Below are positions 2,160 to 63,720 of a stretch of DNA of 64,000 bases, piece after piece. Origin of the DNA: Chryseobacterium gambrini (lineage in GTDB: Bacteria > Bacteroidota > Bacteroidia > Flavobacteriales > Weeksellaceae); assembly GCF_900156825.1 (NCBI RefSeq), contig NZ_FTOV01000003.1, positions 310,001-374,000 of the forward strand, given 5' to 3'. Each line of letters starts with the position of its first letter. Positions within the stretch are counted from its first letter, which is position 1. A program made the position numbers and the translations under genes. The notes under the pieces were generated by a model, which saw only the letters and a program-made list of their open reading frames with translations, had not been told where the DNA came from and made no database searches.

Positions 2160-2239
2160 GGTTAAAATTTGAATTTCAAAAATAGCAAATTGCGGGGATA
2201 TGTTCTTAAAAAAATACAAGCCCTGATTTCTCAAGGCTT
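2047..2239. repeat. Copy A of a ~190 bp duplicated segment (intact copy)
   Basis: This segment holds the first codons of the secreted-protein gene, its upstream region and a terminator hairpin. It is matched by copy B at 4707-4897 in the same orientation, with scattered substitutions and small indels. The two copies bracket the metalloprotease gene at 2281-4560. Confidence 0.85.
2218..2239 (-). terminator. Terminator of the metalloprotease gene (copy A)
   Basis: Nine bp stem AAGCCCTGA / TCAAGGCTT with one wobble pair and a four-base loop (GAAA on the minus strand). It is followed on the minus strand by a T-rich tract. The hairpin is identical to the one after glyS at 4876-4897. Confidence 0.75.
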
Positions 2240-2280
2240 GTATTCTTAAATTATAAAACTTAACTTAATATTTATTGAGT

Positions 2281-4560
2281 TTATTTTTTTTGAATCAAAA
2301 TTTTCTTTGTATTTAGTTGATTATTAACAACAATACCAAGAGTGTACATTCCATTATCCAAATCTGAAATGTCAATTTTCAATTTTCTATTCTTTGAATA
2401 TAAATTATCCATATTTCTCAGTAATTTGCCAGATGCATCATATACTTTTAATGAAATTTTAGAATTTTCTATTACAGAACTTTCAAACTTAATAGTAAAG
2501 ATTCCATTATTAGGATTAGGATATAATATGGTGTAATCTTTAGTGCTATTGTATTCATTAGTATTTAGAGTACCACTCGTTATAGAAAAATTTGTATTTG
2601 ATATATCAAAAAAGATATTTCCTACAGATTGTACTTTAATTCTAGCTTGTGTTGTATTTATGTTAGGCAAAATTATTGACTCACTACCATCATTTGGAGT
2701 CGAAGCAATAAGTGTTGTAGGAAATGTAAGTCCTCCATCGGATGAAAATAAAATGCTTACATTTGGAGTTGCGATATTTGTTCCATTTACGCTCCATGTA
2801 ATGGTTTGTGAAGTATTACCAATATAAGAACCGGATAAATTTGTTGTTTCTAAAAATGGTCCTATTAATCCATTTACAATAACATCTACATTTGCATTTG
2901 TAATGCCGCCACATCCTGCACGATTATCTCGGACAGTTAAAGAATGAGAGGTTGTGACACTTACAGATGGTAATTTATCGCCTATATCATAATTAGTTCC
3001 GTTTAAAATTTTGCTTAAAATAGGGTATATTCTAGTAGGTGAAGTGCTTGCAAGATAGGTTCTAAAAAAAGGAGGTTGAGAAGTATCTGCCAATGTGCTT
3101 GTTGTAGGAGGAGCAACTGTTCCCGTATTTCCGCCTTCCCAGCAGTAAGACAAAGTGTCTCCATCAGCATCCGTTGCACTTCCTGTTAGTGAAAAAGGAG
3201 TTGATTTTGGTACTGTATATGAGCTAGGCATAGTAATAACTGGAGGGGTATTTCCTGTTGCAGTAATCACAGCACAACTTGTTGCATCTATAGTGCTAAT
3301 TGCCTGATCAAAGTTAACTTTGTGAAACTGTAATATCGGACCTGACGATATTGGAGCTGTTTGATTAGTATAATAATCATCTGTACCACAAGTAAACCCA
3401 TAGCTCATTATGGAAGCTCCCGAACCAGGCTCTACAGAAGTTGCGGCTGCTCTTGTTGTACATACAGGAATATTACTGTTATAGGAGTGACTCATTCCGA
3501 ACTGGTGTCCTATTTCATGAAAAAGTAACTGATCCATGAAAATTTGAGCATATGCATTTAAGTCTCCCTCTGCAGATATCCCGCTGCCTTTATATGAATT
3601 ATCACATATAGAGGCTGCTGAAGCTACACCAGAACCAGAACTTCCGGGAATATCAGTATGTAAAAGGTGTCCTATATCATAATTTGCAGTACCAATTACA
3701 GTATTACAATTAATATGATTTTGGCTAATCATACTAATATCATCACCACTATAGGGGTCTGTACTTGGGTTTGTATAAATTAAATTAGTTCCACTTACTA
3801 AAGTAAATGCAACAGATAGTTCGTTTCTATAAACCGCATTTAATCTATTTAGATATGCTACAATAGTTGCTAATGCTGCAGTAGAACTGCCATACTTGGT
3901 TGTAAACTCTCCTGTTGCTGCGATAGCAATTCTGAAAGTTCTAAGTTGTGTCCCAGATGTCGTAAGTAAATTTTTTGAATAATTCTTATCTGAATTTAAA
4001 TTTGTTTTATACGAATTGTTACCAACAATATCTTCAATATGACAACTTTTATTTATAGGGGAAGTTACTTTTATATTCTTAGTAAAATAACTTGCATATA
4101 TGTTGTTATTATCGGAGGTATATTTTTCTAAATAAACTGTGTCTCCATTTATATTTAAAAAGATAGCATTAAAACCTTCAGATGTGATTGATAGTCTGAT
4201 AATCCTTTTTTTATCTTTTGTGCCATTTCCCGTATAAGTTTTTATTTCAGGATTTTGAAGAGCAATTTCGGGAGATAATATAGGAGATTCTACCATATTA
4301 AATGTCTCTTCAGACCCATCAGGTAAAGGCAGCGTTAGAGGAATAGGAGGATTAATTGAAAACTCAAGTGGGGCATTAGAAAGATAGTTTTCTAAAGATT
4401 TTTCTTTGATCCTGAAAACATTAACATCTTTAATTTTAGAAAAAATAGGCTTTTCTCGGATATCTAATTTTCTTACATCTATTTTTTCCAAGAAAATATT
4501 TTGAGAAAAGACAAAAATGGATTTAACCATTAAGAGAAACAGTAGAATTTTTTTTTTCAT
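2281..4560 (-). CDS. Secreted reprolysin-like zinc metalloprotease with T9SS sorting domain
   Basis: The 759-residue protein starts with a signal peptide (MKKKILLFLLMVKSIFVFSQ) and a propeptide-like region. The metzincin zinc site HEIGHQFGMSH lies at residues 348-358 and the Met-turn SIMSY around residue 385, as in reprolysin-like (M12B-type) peptidases of Bacteroidota. A PKD/cadherin-like stretch (DADGDTLSYCW) follows. From about residue 676 there is a type A sorting domain of the type IX secretion system (YPNPNNGIF, ending in KKILIQKK), so export to the cell surface or medium is expected. The gene is visibly more AT-rich than glyS next to it and lies between duplicated segments, which suggests later acquisition. 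Substrate unknown. Confidence 0.88.
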   Translation of the reverse strand: MKKKILLFLLMVKSIFVFSQNIFLEKIDVRKLDIREKPIFSKIKDVNVFRIKEKSLENYLSNAPLEFSINPPIPLTLPLPDGSEETFNMVESPILSPEIALQNPEIKTYTGNGTKDKKRIIRLSITSEGFNAIFLNINGDTVYLEKYTSDNNNIYASYFTKNIKVTSPINKSCHIEDIVGNNSYKTNLNSDKNYSKNLLTTSGTQLRTFRIAIAATGEFTTKYGSSTAALATIVAYLNRLNAVYRNELSVAFTLVSGTNLIYTNPSTDPYSGDDISMISQNHINCNTVIGTANYDIGHLLHTDIPGSSGSGVASAASICDNSYKGSGISAEGDLNAYAQIFMDQLLFHEIGHQFGMSHSYNSNIPVCTTRAAATSVEPGSGASIMSYGFTCGTDDYYTNQTAPISSGPILQFHKVNFDQAISTIDATSCAVITATGNTPPVITMPSSYTVPKSTPFSLTGSATDADGDTLSYCWEGGNTGTVAPPTTSTLADTSQPPFFRTYLASTSPTRIYPILSKILNGTNYDIGDKLPSVSVTTSHSLTVRDNRAGCGGITNANVDVIVNGLIGPFLETTNLSGSYIGNTSQTITWSVNGTNIATPNVSILFSSDGGLTFPTTLIASTPNDGSESIILPNINTTQARIKVQSVGNIFFDISNTNFSITSGTLNTNEYNSTKDYTILYPNPNNGIFTIKFESSVIENSKISLKVYDASGKLLRNMDNLYSKNRKLKIDISDLDNGMYTLGIVVNNQLNTKKILIQKK

Positions 4561-4706
4561 TTTTTTTAATTTCCCGCAAGTTTAAGGATTCTTTCTTTAA
4601 TAACTTTTACTGTTTTTCAATGGAATTGAACTGTTTGGTGAATTTGATTTAAATGTGGTGTTTTGTCATATTTATGTCTTATCAAAATAGATTGTTTTTG
4701 ACGGTG

Positions 4707-4818
4707 AGCAGCGCACTCATCCCAACATTTTTCCTGATGCTAAAGAAGCCAGATCCTGAGTCTTAGAATATACAATTGTCTGAATAAGACCAAAAACCAA
4801 AAGTGTTAATTTTTTCAT
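4707..4818 (-). pseudogene. Decayed 5' remnant of the 642-2159 secreted-protein gene
   Basis: From the ATG at 4818 the minus strand reads MKKLTLLVFGLIQTIVYS and continues nearly identically to the signal peptide and early mature part of the gene at 642-2159. A one-base deletion then shifts the frame into an early stop, and similarity ends near 4707. It is a fragment left by the duplication around the metalloprotease gene and is not expected to make a functional protein. Confidence 0.85.
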
Positions 4819-6551: not shown

Positions 6552-6663
6552 CAGGAGTCGGGAACCTGCTTTCACTACTCGCTTTTTTCTGTTTTCAGCG
6601 CGGCGGAGCCGCCGCGCTGAAAACAGAAAAAGAGCTCAGACATGCCGTTCAATCAGGACTACT
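6552..6663. repeat. REP-like palindromic element, copy 1
   Basis: The core is a perfect 23 bp inverted repeat at 6584-6606 / 6609-6631 with a 2 bp centre. The outer flanks carry the tags GCTTTC-ACTACTCGCT on the left and GAGCTCAGACA ... CAATCAGGACTA on the right, which recur in copies at 51695-51796 and, on the other strand, 9204-9280. It lies between glyS and the gene at 6710. The hairpin would be extremely stable in RNA or single-stranded DNA. Confidence 0.8.
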
Positions 6664-16130: not shown

Positions 16131-16165
16131 TTATAATAAGATTAAATGTATCCGTCTATATTAAA

Positions 16166-16364
16166 CCATTAAGATTTTATTTAAGAAGTTTAGATTAATT
16201 AAGTTGAATATTTTATTTTTTAAATTTTGGCTAAAGCCTTATGGTTTATTTTTTGAATGAAAAAACGGGCTGAAGCCCGTTCCTATTCATGTTGATATTA
16301 AGATTTTAAATAATTTACGTGAAGAGCTTAATTAATCTAAACTTCTTAAATAAAATCTTAATGG
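16166..16364. repeat. Inverted-repeat unit A, no gene inside
   Basis: Two perfect 38 bp inverted arms (16166-16203 and 16327-16364) begin CCATTAAGATTTTATTTAAG at both outer ends. The 123 bp interior has no gene. It holds a smaller hairpin AACGGGCT-GA-AGCCCGTT (16265-16282) and GGCTAAAGCC (16229-16238). The outer ends match those of the units at 17841-17962 and 62161-62666. The right arm ends 10 bp from the osmC stop codon, so it could also act as a transcription end point. Confidence 0.85.
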
Positions 16365-16373
16365 CTCAAATTC

Positions 16374-17738: not shown

Positions 17739-17840
17739 CCTTTTGCTTTCCTATAAATGTACAAAAAAGCATGATTTCAACACTATTAAATTATTGAAAC
17801 CATGCTTAATAATATAAATTTAATTGCTGAATTTTCTGAA

Positions 17841-17962
17841 CCATTAAGAGGATTTAAGTGGTTAAGTTTAGTTTAGAAAATCAAATTGATTTTAATAAGG
17901 ATAAAACTAAAAAAGCGAAGCTCATCTTAATATTCTAAACTTCTTAACAGAAATCTTAATGG
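17841..17962. repeat. Inverted-repeat unit B, degenerate, no gene inside
   Basis: Imperfect inverted arms at 17841-17871 and 17935-17962, both starting CCATTAAGA at the outer end and ending TAAGTTTAG or GAAGTTTAG inside. They match the termini of unit A (16166) and unit C (62161). This accounts for most of the 309 bp gap before the TonB receptor; the rest shows no gene. Confidence 0.7.
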
Positions 17963-18047
17963 TTTAAACTAAGTGCAAATAATATTAATTCTGATTTTTA
18001 GCTCACGACTCCAACCCACTAACGCTAGAACCCTCCAACTCTAAAAC

Positions 18048-51694: not shown

Positions 51695-51796
51695 GCTTTA
51701 TCTCGCTTTCCGCACTCGCTATTTTAGGATTTCGGCGGCGAAGCCGCCGCCGAAATCCTAAAATGAGCTCAGACAATTGCTGCAATCGAGGCTAGG
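51695..51796. repeat. REP-like palindromic element, copy 3
   Basis: Perfect 19 bp inverted arms at 51721-51739 and 51746-51764 with a six-base loop. Left tag CTCGCTTTCCGCACTCGCT, right tags GAGCTCAGACA and GCAATCGAGGCTA, as in the element at 6552. The arm sequence itself (ATTTTAGGATTTCGGCGGC) is unrelated to that of the other copies. It lies in the 525 bp between rho and sod; the 51800-52040 part shows no feature. Confidence 0.8.
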
Positions 51797-61624: not shown

Positions 61625-61717
61625 TAATGAGTAATGGGTAATGAGTAATAGATGAAATACATTTTAAAATGAACAATAAGGTTAAAATATTACTTATTGC
61701 ACATTATTCATTACTTA
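61625..61717. repeat. Imperfect inverted repeat of TAATGAGTAATG type
   Basis: Left arm 61625-61649 and right arm 61689-61717 are near-complementary runs of TAATGAGTAAT-like units around a ~39 bp centre. The right arm covers the stop codon of the RapZ-like gene. Such a structure may act as transcript end or a mobile-repeat remnant. Confidence 0.6.
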
Positions 61718-62121
61718 TGATTAAGTTGATGCTGTTCGTCATGATGAAGGCTGATTTCAACTTTTTCACCATATTTTTCTTCAATAAAATGAGCGATTTT
61801 TATCGCAGAATAAACCGATCTGTGCTGTCCTCCTGTACAGCCGAAGTTGATCTGAAGGTTTTCAAATCCCCTTTCCAGATAATTATCTATATTAATGGAA
61901 ACAAGATTCTTGATTAATTCCAGAAATTTAGGCATTTCGGTTTTGGTTTCCAGATATTCCTGAACACCGATGTCGTTTCCGGTCTGGGTTTTATATTCTT
62001 CCACTCTTCCCGGATTTAAAATTCCGCGGCAGTCAAACGTAAAACCTCCTCCGTTTCCTGTTTCATCTTTCGGAATTCCTCCTTTTTTGTACGAAAAACT
62101 GTGTATATCGATGTGTAGCAT
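61711..62121 (-). CDS. RapZ C-terminal-like protein (stand-alone)
   Basis: 136 residues matching only the C-terminal half of RapZ/YvcJ: the start MLHIDIHSFSYKKGGIPKDETGNGGGFTFDCRGILNPGR, then FGCTGGQHRSVYSA. In E. coli this half binds GlcN6P and RNA. The N-terminal ATPase part is absent. In many Bacteroidota this domain sits with, or is fused to, a sugar kinase of the AmgK type. Here the kinase lies upstream but is separated from it by the inverted-repeat unit with the GxxExxY gene. Its role in amino-sugar recycling is inferred. Confidence 0.85.
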   Translation of the reverse strand: MLHIDIHSFSYKKGGIPKDETGNGGGFTFDCRGILNPGRVEEYKTQTGNDIGVQEYLETKTEMPKFLELIKNLVSINIDNYLERGFENLQINFGCTGGQHRSVYSAIKIAHFIEEKYGEKVEISLHHDEQHQLNHK

Positions 62122-62160
62122 TTTTTTAATTTTATAATTATTTATTTATTTATTCTTAAA

Positions 62161-62666
62161 CCGTTAAGATTTATATTTAAGAAGTTAAGTTTATTTAAGA
62201 TTTTTGATAAATCAAAATTTAGTTTGGAAGCTCTTTAAAATACTCATTAATAAAAGGTTTTAAAGATTTGGTTATGTTATCGGTGAAGAAATTGATTAAC
62301 AGACCTTGAGGCTTTTTCAAAACTTTCATGTAAGTTAATAATTGAGCTTCATGAATAGGCAAAATTTCTTCGATCGCTTTTAATTCTACGACAACAGCAT
62401 CATTTACAAGCAGATCAACAACCAGTTTCGTTTTGATATCAACTCCTTCATAATTAATGGTTGTAAAAAGTTGTTGTTTTACATCATATCCATTGTTAAT
62501 GAGTTCAATTTTTAAACATTCTTCATAAATACTTTCAAGCAAACCAGGTCCAAGTGTTTTGTGAACTTTTATTGCAAAACCGGTAATTTCATAAGATAAT
62601 TGTGTAATTTCTTTTTTCGTCATAACACTTAACTATGCTTAACTTCTTAAATATAAATCTTAATGG
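62161..62666. repeat. Inverted-repeat unit C enclosing the GxxExxY gene
   Basis: 29 bp arms at 62161-62189 (CCGTTAAGATTTATATTTAA...) and 62638-62666 (its inverse, one mismatch). The only gene inside is 62219-62623. The outer ends match the units at 16166 and 17841. No target-site duplication is evident. The right arm overlaps the last codons and stop of the kinase gene at 62660. Confidence 0.85.
62219..62623 (-). CDS. GxxExxY protein (PDDEXK_3, PD-(D/E)XK nuclease fold)
   Basis: 134 residues. The name-giving motif is in KTLGPGLLESIYEECL (G-LL-E-SI-Y). The nuclease-fold core has Asp in KLVVDLLVNDAVVVELKAIE and E-L-K, the D...ExK residues. EAQLLTYMK follows as the helix after the core. The family is of unknown function and often multi-copy in a genome. 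This copy lies alone between inverted repeats inside an otherwise conserved-looking gene set, so it may be mobile or part of a mobile unit. No transposase is seen. Confidence 0.9.
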   Translation of the reverse strand: MTKKEITQLSYEITGFAIKVHKTLGPGLLESIYEECLKIELINNGYDVKQQLFTTINYEGVDIKTKLVVDLLVNDAVVVELKAIEEILPIHEAQLLTYMKVLKKPQGLLINFFTDNITKSLKPFINEYFKELPN

Positions 62667-63676
62667 TTCAATATTTCTTCAATTTTCAATTTTGTTTTAT
62701 CCGCACTCAATTGTTTAATCACTTTTTCCAGTTCGGGATAATCGTTCATATTTTCCCAGTTTTGCGAAAACGCTGTAATGTTTTCTATTCCTTTTTCTAT
62801 GCTTGAAATAAAATGCGGTTTTCTCTGAATTAATCCCCGAAAACCGTAAGCTCCCAAAACCTGAAGAAACCGCATCAGTTGAATTGGTTTTACCGAAAAA
62901 TTTAGTTTGTCTTTAATTTCCTGACTTTCAAACTGATTTATATATATATTCAACATCTCATTTTTGAAATCTTCCGGAAAGTTTGCTTTTGCCTGAAACA
63001 GAAAAGAAATGACATCATACATCAAAGGACCTTTCATTGCCGATTGATAGTCGATAAACGAGACTTCTTTCTGATCATTCACCATGATATTTCTTGCCTG
63101 AAAATCGCGGATCATTAATCCTTTCGGCTCCAGATTTTCGATGAGAGAAACGACGTTCTTAAATTCTTTCAGAAGGGTAGATTTGTGATATTCCAGCTCC
63201 AAAACATCCGCCACGAAATTTTTAAAATAATACAGATCGTGCATTACCGGAAGTTCATCATAGCTTTCATATTCGAAAGTTTTGGTGAAATCTATTTTAT
63301 TCTGCGTTGAAATCTGTAACTGATACAGTTTTTGCAGGGTTTGCTTTACCAAAGATTTTACATTTTCAGACAAACCTTCCTTTGAGATGATTTCAGAAAG
63401 AGTATTGTCTCCTAAAAACTCCTGAATATACATTTTACGGTCATCCGAAACGGCAAAAATTTTAGGTGTATTAAGCTTTAAATCTGAAAATAGATCTGAG
63501 TAATACAGAAAACTTTCATTTTCCGCTATATTTTCGTTGTAGGTAATGATAAACTTTTTATCAGTTTTCGCAATAAAATTTACTCTCGCGGAACCACTTT
63601 GAGCTAAAGAGATCAACTCAGAAGGTTGTTTTCCAGTATAATTTTCAAAAAAAATTTGGGCGTATTCGGAAATCAT
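62660..63676 (-). CDS. AmgK-like sugar kinase (aminoglycoside phosphotransferase fold)
   Basis: 338 residues from the ATG at 63676; a GTG at 63685 is also in frame but lies on the predicted -7 box. Kinase motifs: KKFIITYNE (Lys of the N lobe), MIRDFQARNIMV (catalytic Asp and Asn; the usual first His is Arg) and SFIDYQSAMKGPLMYDVISFL (metal Asp). AmgK phosphorylates MurNAc or GlcNAc at C1; with MurU and RapZ-C genes downstream, a cell-wall sugar recycling role is likely. The last codons (Asn-His-stop) lie within the right arm of the 62638-62666 repeat. Confidence 0.87.
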   Translation of the reverse strand: MISEYAQIFFENYTGKQPSELISLAQSGSARVNFIAKTDKKFIITYNENIAENESFLYYSDLFSDLKLNTPKIFAVSDDRKMYIQEFLGDNTLSEIISKEGLSENVKSLVKQTLQKLYQLQISTQNKIDFTKTFEYESYDELPVMHDLYYFKNFVADVLELEYHKSTLLKEFKNVVSLIENLEPKGLMIRDFQARNIMVNDQKEVSFIDYQSAMKGPLMYDVISFLFQAKANFPEDFKNEMLNIYINQFESQEIKDKLNFSVKPIQLMRFLQVLGAYGFRGLIQRKPHFISSIEKGIENITAFSQNWENMNDYPELEKVIKQLSADKTKLKIEEILNH

Positions 63677-63684
63677 AGATGTCA

Positions 63685-63720
63685 CAAATATAATAATTTA
63701 CAGGCTAATTTCTATATTTG
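63685..63720. promoter_or_regulatory. Back-to-back promoters with almost no mRNA leader
   Basis: Minus strand: TATATTTG at 63692-63685, followed by the kinase ATG at 63676. Plus strand: TATATTTG at 63713-63720, followed by the exosortase ATG at 63725. Both predicted transcription starts fall within a few bases of their ATG. Clear -33 boxes are lacking. Confidence 0.6.

Follow-up and report, generated by a model that had tools for sequence, protein, structure and literature searches.

GxxExxY genes and inverted arrays of short repeat units are associated in a real and general way, and this is well supported by comparison of loci within one genus, across its phylum and beyond. Sequence comparisons further lead us to favor, with reasonable though not high confidence, a RAYT/REPIN-like system in which the enzyme would be a lone nuclease of the Cas4/lambda-exonuclease type, acting on dispersed palindromic units. 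The window analyzed here, a stretch of 64,000 nucleotides from an assembly that totals 4.84 Mb and comprises 51 contigs, contains one such gene-bearing unit (the focal unit) and two gene-free units of the same family (Table 1).

Table 1. Features of the window, with positions counted from its first nucleotide
Feature	Position	Strand	Remarks
Gene-free palindromic unit, focal family	16161–16369		43-nt arms, 95% complementary
Second gene-free unit, focal family	17835–17965
RapZ C-terminal-domain gene	61711–62121	−	Anchor for site comparison
Left arm of focal unit (core 62161–62189)	62156–62207	+	Repeated TTAAG-type motifs
GxxExxY gene, 134 aa, PD-(D/E)XK nuclease fold	62219–62623	−	TIGR04256, PF13366, alignment, AlphaFold2
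Right arm of focal unit (core 62638–62666)	62620–62671	−	Overlaps last codons and stop codon of the kinase gene
APH-fold kinase gene	62660–63685	−	Anchor for site comparison

Anatomy of the focal unit and its nuclease

The focal unit had been described from the sequence alone as a ∼506-bp segment with near-perfect inverted repeats, one GxxExxY gene and no transposase, and this was confirmed by the coordinates, the scores and the ORF listing. Its setting between a kinase gene and a RapZ-C gene proved correct as well, the neighbors encoding an APH-fold kinase and a RapZ C-terminal-domain protein. The arm cores, CCGTTAAGATTTATATTTAAGAAGTTAAG on the left and, read on the opposite strand, CCATTAAGATTTATATTTAAGAAGTTAAG on the right, are identical in inverted orientation at 28 of 29 positions, and a repeat search extended the pair to 52 nt with an 85% match. 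The arms have a local score of 63 (the maximum among 3000 order-2 Markov shuffles was 40), and in a scan of the whole 64 kb at a fixed gap of 405 bp the best unrelated window after them scored 28. The GxxExxY gene is the sole ORF of at least 60 aa between the arms, so the unit contains no transposase; no Cas1-type integrase was found among the ORFs of this length there either.

The focal protein is a full-length member of the GxxExxY family (TIGR04256, E = 3.4e-39, 133.8 bits against a curated cut-off of 35; PF13366 or PDDEXK_3, E = 3.8e-37), and its match to the Pfam Cas4 profile is weak and lies under the Pfam cut-off. Residues G25, P26, G27, E30, D70, E80, K82, Q94 and Y98 (numbering of the window protein) are invariant in 20 aligned relatives. 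The nuclease residues are intact: D70 and E80-x-K82 form the D…E-x-K signature of the PD-(D/E)XK core, so that fold and residues both agree with this class, and Q94-x3-Y98 follows the Q-x3-Y pattern which we take to be a mark of RecB/Cas4/lambda-exonuclease relatives. Foldseek analysis of the AlphaFold2 model (pLDDT 92.8, pTM 0.86) gave 4ic1 (SSO0001), presumably a Cas4, as the best match (E = 2.3e-4), followed by lambda exonuclease (E = 7e-3); in sequence profile comparison 4ic1 reached merely E = 0.26.

The family looks chromosomal. With one family member as the tblastn query, matches were obtained in 6 of 72,556 plasmid records and in none of 50,697 phage records, and an alignment search confirmed a single locus in viral contigs, numbers that do not support the notion that GxxExxY genes are phage or plasmid cargo. 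On a Sphingomonas parapaucimobilis plasmid (L381, 1483–1911), a GxxExxY gene lies between fabD and fabG with a unit array upstream. In those parts of the open-licence PMC literature that the listed matches cover, GxxExxY is mentioned in passing and nothing on the present subject came up, and PDDEXK_3 and the repeat unit strings gave no matches in that literature; a report elsewhere is possible.

Inverted arms across the genus and the phylum

The source genome contains seven GxxExxY genes in total. The expectation of the sequence-only reading that the other copies would share the termini of the focal unit did not hold in its literal form, as the six others lack them, which is the very outcome it had named as counting against it; most of them nevertheless have inverted arms of their own kind, and the wider rule of separate termini for each subfamily stands. 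Frames were scored for six of the genome's copies: four (L009, L011, L012 and L015) have arm scores of at least 61, L013 has a score of 22 and CACAAAT units whose repetition is visible, and L010 scores 18. Arm sequences vary from copy to copy within this genome, and a single terminus shared by all copies was rejected since the seven differ.

GxxExxY genes are present in 56 of the 60 genus genomes and absent from four, with 0–9 matches per genome. Flank inverted repeats with a score of at least 26 were found at 44 of 73 genus loci, compared with 9.7% of mismatched flank pairs and 4.6% of shifted windows (77 loci were fetched; those omitted are L014 and L033, which are one locus whose frame is broken, and L043 and L051). 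By flank similarity the genus loci sort into 12 genomic contexts with essentially one subfamily in each, and 10 of the 12 contain at least one armed locus (score of at least 26), not counting the chance-level one in context 0. That context is a 24-locus orthologous clade which is essentially armless (1 of 24 at this score), and context 9 is also without arms. Because each subfamily is confined to essentially one conserved context, the match between subfamily and terminus within the genus was rejected as independent evidence, and protein and arm similarity were therefore compared between genomes instead.

The family occurs in 59 of 118 genomes of the phylum. Scores were obtained for 86 of the 88 phylum loci (no frame was found for L202 and L376); flank inverted repeats reach a score of at least 26 at 55 of the 86 (mismatched pairs, 4.5%; shifted windows, 3.6%) and of at least 30 at 46 (1.5% and 1.3%, respectively), and 31 loci score under 26. 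The loci of this study were drawn non-randomly (30 and 28 best-scoring ones, 40 and 60 hand-picked among the matches listed). When the proteins were clustered by single linkage at 60%, 17 of 22 clusters had a median arm score of at least 26. The arms are arrays of short units of ∼9 bp whose sequence varies by subfamily, for example CCGCAGAGG, CACAGATTT, CACAAAAGT, CGCAAAGGC and ATTAAGAA. Lag analysis of the arms gave a peak at 9 nt (z = 13.4), followed by 10 and 20, and control pieces showed no such peak. Beyond Bacteroidota, armed loci were found in metagenome-assembled genomes (MAGs) of Ignavibacteria (L142), Terriglobia (L147) and Balneola (L149). In one set of 13 loci, six had a score of at least 26 under other start choices; in the scoring used for the phylum loci, in which the wrong frame was picked for L143 and L147, 5 of 12 did (L148 dropped). 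Three of the six plasmid loci also reached this score (L378, L379 and L380), with the Sphingomonas, Treponema and Prevotella loci below it, and the arms of the Gemmatirosa locus L378 surround a frame-broken copy.

Protein similarity correlated with arm similarity (Spearman rho 0.34, p = 0.0005 by permutation, with 0.20 as the highest null value) across 1192 different-genome pairs without homologous flanks, drawn from 50 armed loci (score of at least 30); 28 same-genome pairs and 5 homologous-flank pairs had been left out. The correlation supports co-adaptation of protein and arms and falls short of proving it, because shared genome ancestry may contribute.

Age of the focal unit and dispersal of gene-free units

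The kinase ortholog is present in all 60 genus genomes, and the focal gene (at least 81% identity) in eight of them, always adjoining the kinase gene. Reading of 30 of these sites by eye revealed the full unit at five (G000, G001, G041, G049 and G051), decayed gene tails in G028, G035 and G057, and arm pieces or different repeats at others. The closest relative, G026, which is 92–96% identical over most blocks, keeps a fragment of the left arm, with a different dispersed repeat replacing the remainder. Because eight of the 60 genomes have the gene at this position and decayed relics persist in others, the focal unit is old and decaying, and its recent insertion was rejected. In the comparison with relatives that had been proposed from the sequence, the arrangement is thus not conserved in all of them and is an old resident. 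At the kinase–RapZ site of relatives lacking the unit (L087, L093, L094 and L100), a dispersed repeat of the GTCATCCTGAGC…GTCGAAGGATCT type is found.

The gene-free units are polymorphic. Much or all of the first one in the window is missing in G046 and G058, and it is partial in G024 and G009; the second is absent from G024, G009 and G058, its place being taken in G046 by a unit of the CCACAAAAG type. Further gene-free units are present elsewhere in the source genome (L269, L273–L275 and L277–L279), as are CCACAAAAG- and CCGCAAAAG-type units (L276 and L287). The flanks of six gene-free units were sought in four relatives and five units could be aligned (for unit b275, three relatives lacked one flank); for three of these five, at least one relative shows a clean empty site. 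Both G000 and G026 contain a269 and f278. Unit a269 is cleanly absent from G046 and G024 and replaced by a CACAGATT-family unit in G058, whereas for f278 a different copy is seen in G058 and none in G046; c276 is missing in G024. When units of the source genome are compared with their empty sites, the arm itself forms the border. No clear target-site duplication was seen at the five aligned units, and their junctions are A/T-rich.

Similar palindromes were found in 20 stretches from five other genomes, selected for close array pairs; they span 49–222 bp and mostly have unit arrays at both ends, and in L419 and L421 one repeat family is nested within another. The finding of unrelated families in the same place in different genomes, together with this nesting, indicates that something moves or replaces the units. 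The dispersal of inverted doublets of short repeats in extragenic space agrees with a feature of RAYT/REPIN systems, with a differing orientation of close pairs in G140.

Several other repeat structures were observed. In L274 (about 1500–1880), two nearly identical gene-free units of the focal family form a tandem pair. In G026 (L218–L221), a 236-bp insertion with CCTGATTTCGGGATAAG-type inverted ends and internal CGCAAGG/CTTTGCG motifs lies within the counterpart of the window's gene-free palindrome, at window position 16192. In G105 (even-numbered loci from L386 to L414), unit arrays lie within MITE-like repeats with GAGACCTCTGAAAAAT or GGGTGGTTCTAAAAACTTC ends, several of them at contig ends; as many copies sit in MITEs with unrelated ends, the high copy number in this genome was rejected as proof of activity. 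Perfect or near-perfect G+C-rich hairpins with GGCGG cores occur at window positions 6584–6631 and 51721–51764 and at 1175–1211 of L271, and may be terminators or another repeat family. Finally, ∼2.5 kb of the window (2239–4709) is missing in G026, G024 and G058, whose alignment coordinates overlap by roughly 170–190 bp, as if a direct repeat flanked the insert.

Arrays were counted with the pattern CRCARAKNNCRCARAK in the same 118 phylum genomes, with the pattern read backwards as a control. Genomes with GxxExxY contain a mean of 15.4 arrays (median 6) and those without it a mean of 2.3 (median 2), compared with control means of 0.95 and 0.69, respectively. The difference is significant by the Mann–Whitney test (p = 1.7e-7) and by within-family permutation (p = 0.002), with the reservation that the counts include arrays framing GxxExxY genes and that genome relatedness may add to the count and Mantel statistics. 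At least 10 arrays were found in 25 of 59 genomes with GxxExxY and in 2 of 59 without, as would be expected of a RAYT/REPIN-like system; 34 of the 59 genomes with the gene have fewer than 10. Genomes G103 and G165 contain 23 and 13 arrays without a GxxExxY gene, and G083 has 117 arrays and four genes. An origin of the counts in coding repeats was rejected, since only 2 of 30 own-genome matches checked lie in open frames of at least 250 codons; regular tandem clusters do exist. Among the matches listed, close array pairs in inverted orientation (16 inward, 1 outward) all belong to genomes with the nuclease, and in genomes that lack it both arrays point the same way in each of the six close pairs; the list for G140, with three outward pairs and one inward, runs opposite to the trend of the main list. 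The focal 14-mer weakly tracks the focal gene: away from the gene its mean count is 2.0 in the eight genomes with it and 0.83 in the 52 without (p = 0.04), and G026 and G058 have 7 and 9 copies in the absence of the gene.

Proposed mechanism and comparison with known systems

From the statistics and from the anatomy of the units, we infer that the nuclease causes the dispersal, which would include binding and cutting of the units. On this reading the focal unit belongs to a family of dispersed palindromic elements as the member that contains the gene, and the inverted arrays of ∼9-bp units at its ends are probably binding sites of the encoded GxxExxY nuclease. Gene-free units whose ends match would be its targets in trans: the enzyme is proposed to cut or nick the arrays at both ends of the palindrome, perhaps in hairpin form, and host repair or replication would then copy gene-free units to other places between genes. 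The unit with the gene, by contrast, would mostly stay put, be inherited vertically and be lost by decay from many lineages, a behavior like that of RAYT genes in relation to REPINs. The original proposal that the nuclease-fold protein moves or maintains a repeat-bounded unit is upheld insofar as the gene lies in such a unit and gene-free relatives of the unit are dispersed and polymorphic, but not in the sense of a recent insertion of the focal unit. Its other proposal, that the repeats act as RNA hairpins, would if taken alone leave the dispersed copies with empty sites and the link to the nuclease family unexplained.

A different enzyme, supplied in trans and either a RAYT or a transposase of the DDE type, could move the palindromes, with GxxExxY as a passenger caught in the units. 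This is conceivable but unlikely. It fits the array-bearing palindromes of G105, which ride in MITEs with different terminal repeats, and the composite of this kind by which, in G026, the gene-free unit known from the window is split. However, a passenger is not expected in as many independent units as the 17 armed protein clusters imply, nor is it expected to co-vary with arm sequence or to predict array counts, and the own-genome units have their border with the empty site at the arm. The repeats could also serve the host as terminators or chromosome-structure sites at gene ends, with GxxExxY as a housekeeping nuclease that trims or repairs palindromes. The position of several units directly behind stop codons (the focal unit and f278), their strongly palindromic character and the vertical inheritance of the enzyme at fixed sites are in line with such a role, which we still regard as improbable: the nuclease is absent from half of the phylum genomes and from four genus genomes, and the presence of units varies from species to species, with other families substituted at one spot, which better fits mobile DNA. 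A homing-type cycle, in which the nuclease cuts gene-less alleles or unit sites and gene conversion copies the gene-bearing unit in, would account for the finding of a nuclease gene alone between copies of what is presumed to be its target and for the occurrence of one protein cluster in several contexts (cluster 1 in contexts 2, 3, 5, 6 and 10), but is very improbable given that some genomes, such as G083, have far more gene-free units than genes, that units insert gene-free and that the focal gene was repeatedly lost at its own site.

Dispersal of gene-free units by the GxxExxY nuclease, the reading that we prefer, may extend further. We consider the chances evenly balanced that GxxExxY proteins constitute a separate class of mobile-DNA enzymes, with one subfamily per repeat family, which read tandem 9-bp end units and, in Bacteroidota as well as several other phyla, spread copies without the gene, and that much of the CRCARAK-type intergenic repeat content so far unexplained in these genomes consists of their non-autonomous elements. 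If so, a common multi-copy family of unknown function would gain a role and a large class of Bacteroidota intergenic repeats would gain an enzyme, and a REPIN-like symbiosis of enzyme and palindrome would have arisen a second time, from a nuclease without a transposase domain. Because the arms vary by subfamily, they would also provide a ready-made series in which to study how sequence specificity might be gained by a Cas4-like nuclease.

The predicted fold and catalytic core of the focal protein resemble those of Cas4, lambda exonuclease and RecB-type nucleases. It is much shorter than these (134 aa), and the GxxExxY loci that were read are without CRISPR or recombinase neighbors and are tied to dispersed repeats. 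Casposons have terminal inverted repeats and, in some cases, a Cas4-like nuclease, two properties shared by the focal unit, which differs from them in having one gene in about 0.5 kb and neither a Cas1 integrase nor a polymerase. MITEs of DDE insertion sequences are likewise short, gene-free inverted-repeat units with empty sites, and some arrays lie inside true-looking MITEs; in contrast to MITEs, the units described here have no transposase between the arms, no clear target-site duplication, and ends built as multi-unit arrays that vary by nuclease subfamily.

The closest parallel is with REPINs and RAYTs (REP-associated tyrosine transposases). REPINs are described as short inverted repeat doublets dispersed between genes, with a cognate RAYT beside such repeats, and RAYTs as vertically inherited, chromosomal and rare on plasmids, the repeats being commoner where the enzyme is present (PMC3116915, PMC8049555). 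GxxExxY genes share with RAYTs their position beside inverted doublets, vertical inheritance, rarity on plasmids and the higher number of repeats in genomes with the enzyme. They differ in that several copies may be present per genome (0–9) and that the ends are ∼9-bp unit arrays, whereas a REPIN has a REP hairpin with a tag. The system is not a member of RAYT/REPIN, because its enzyme is a PD-(D/E)XK nuclease (TIGR04256/PF13366) and not an HUH Y1 tyrosine transposase. By analogy, however, it most likely works as RAYT/REPIN does.
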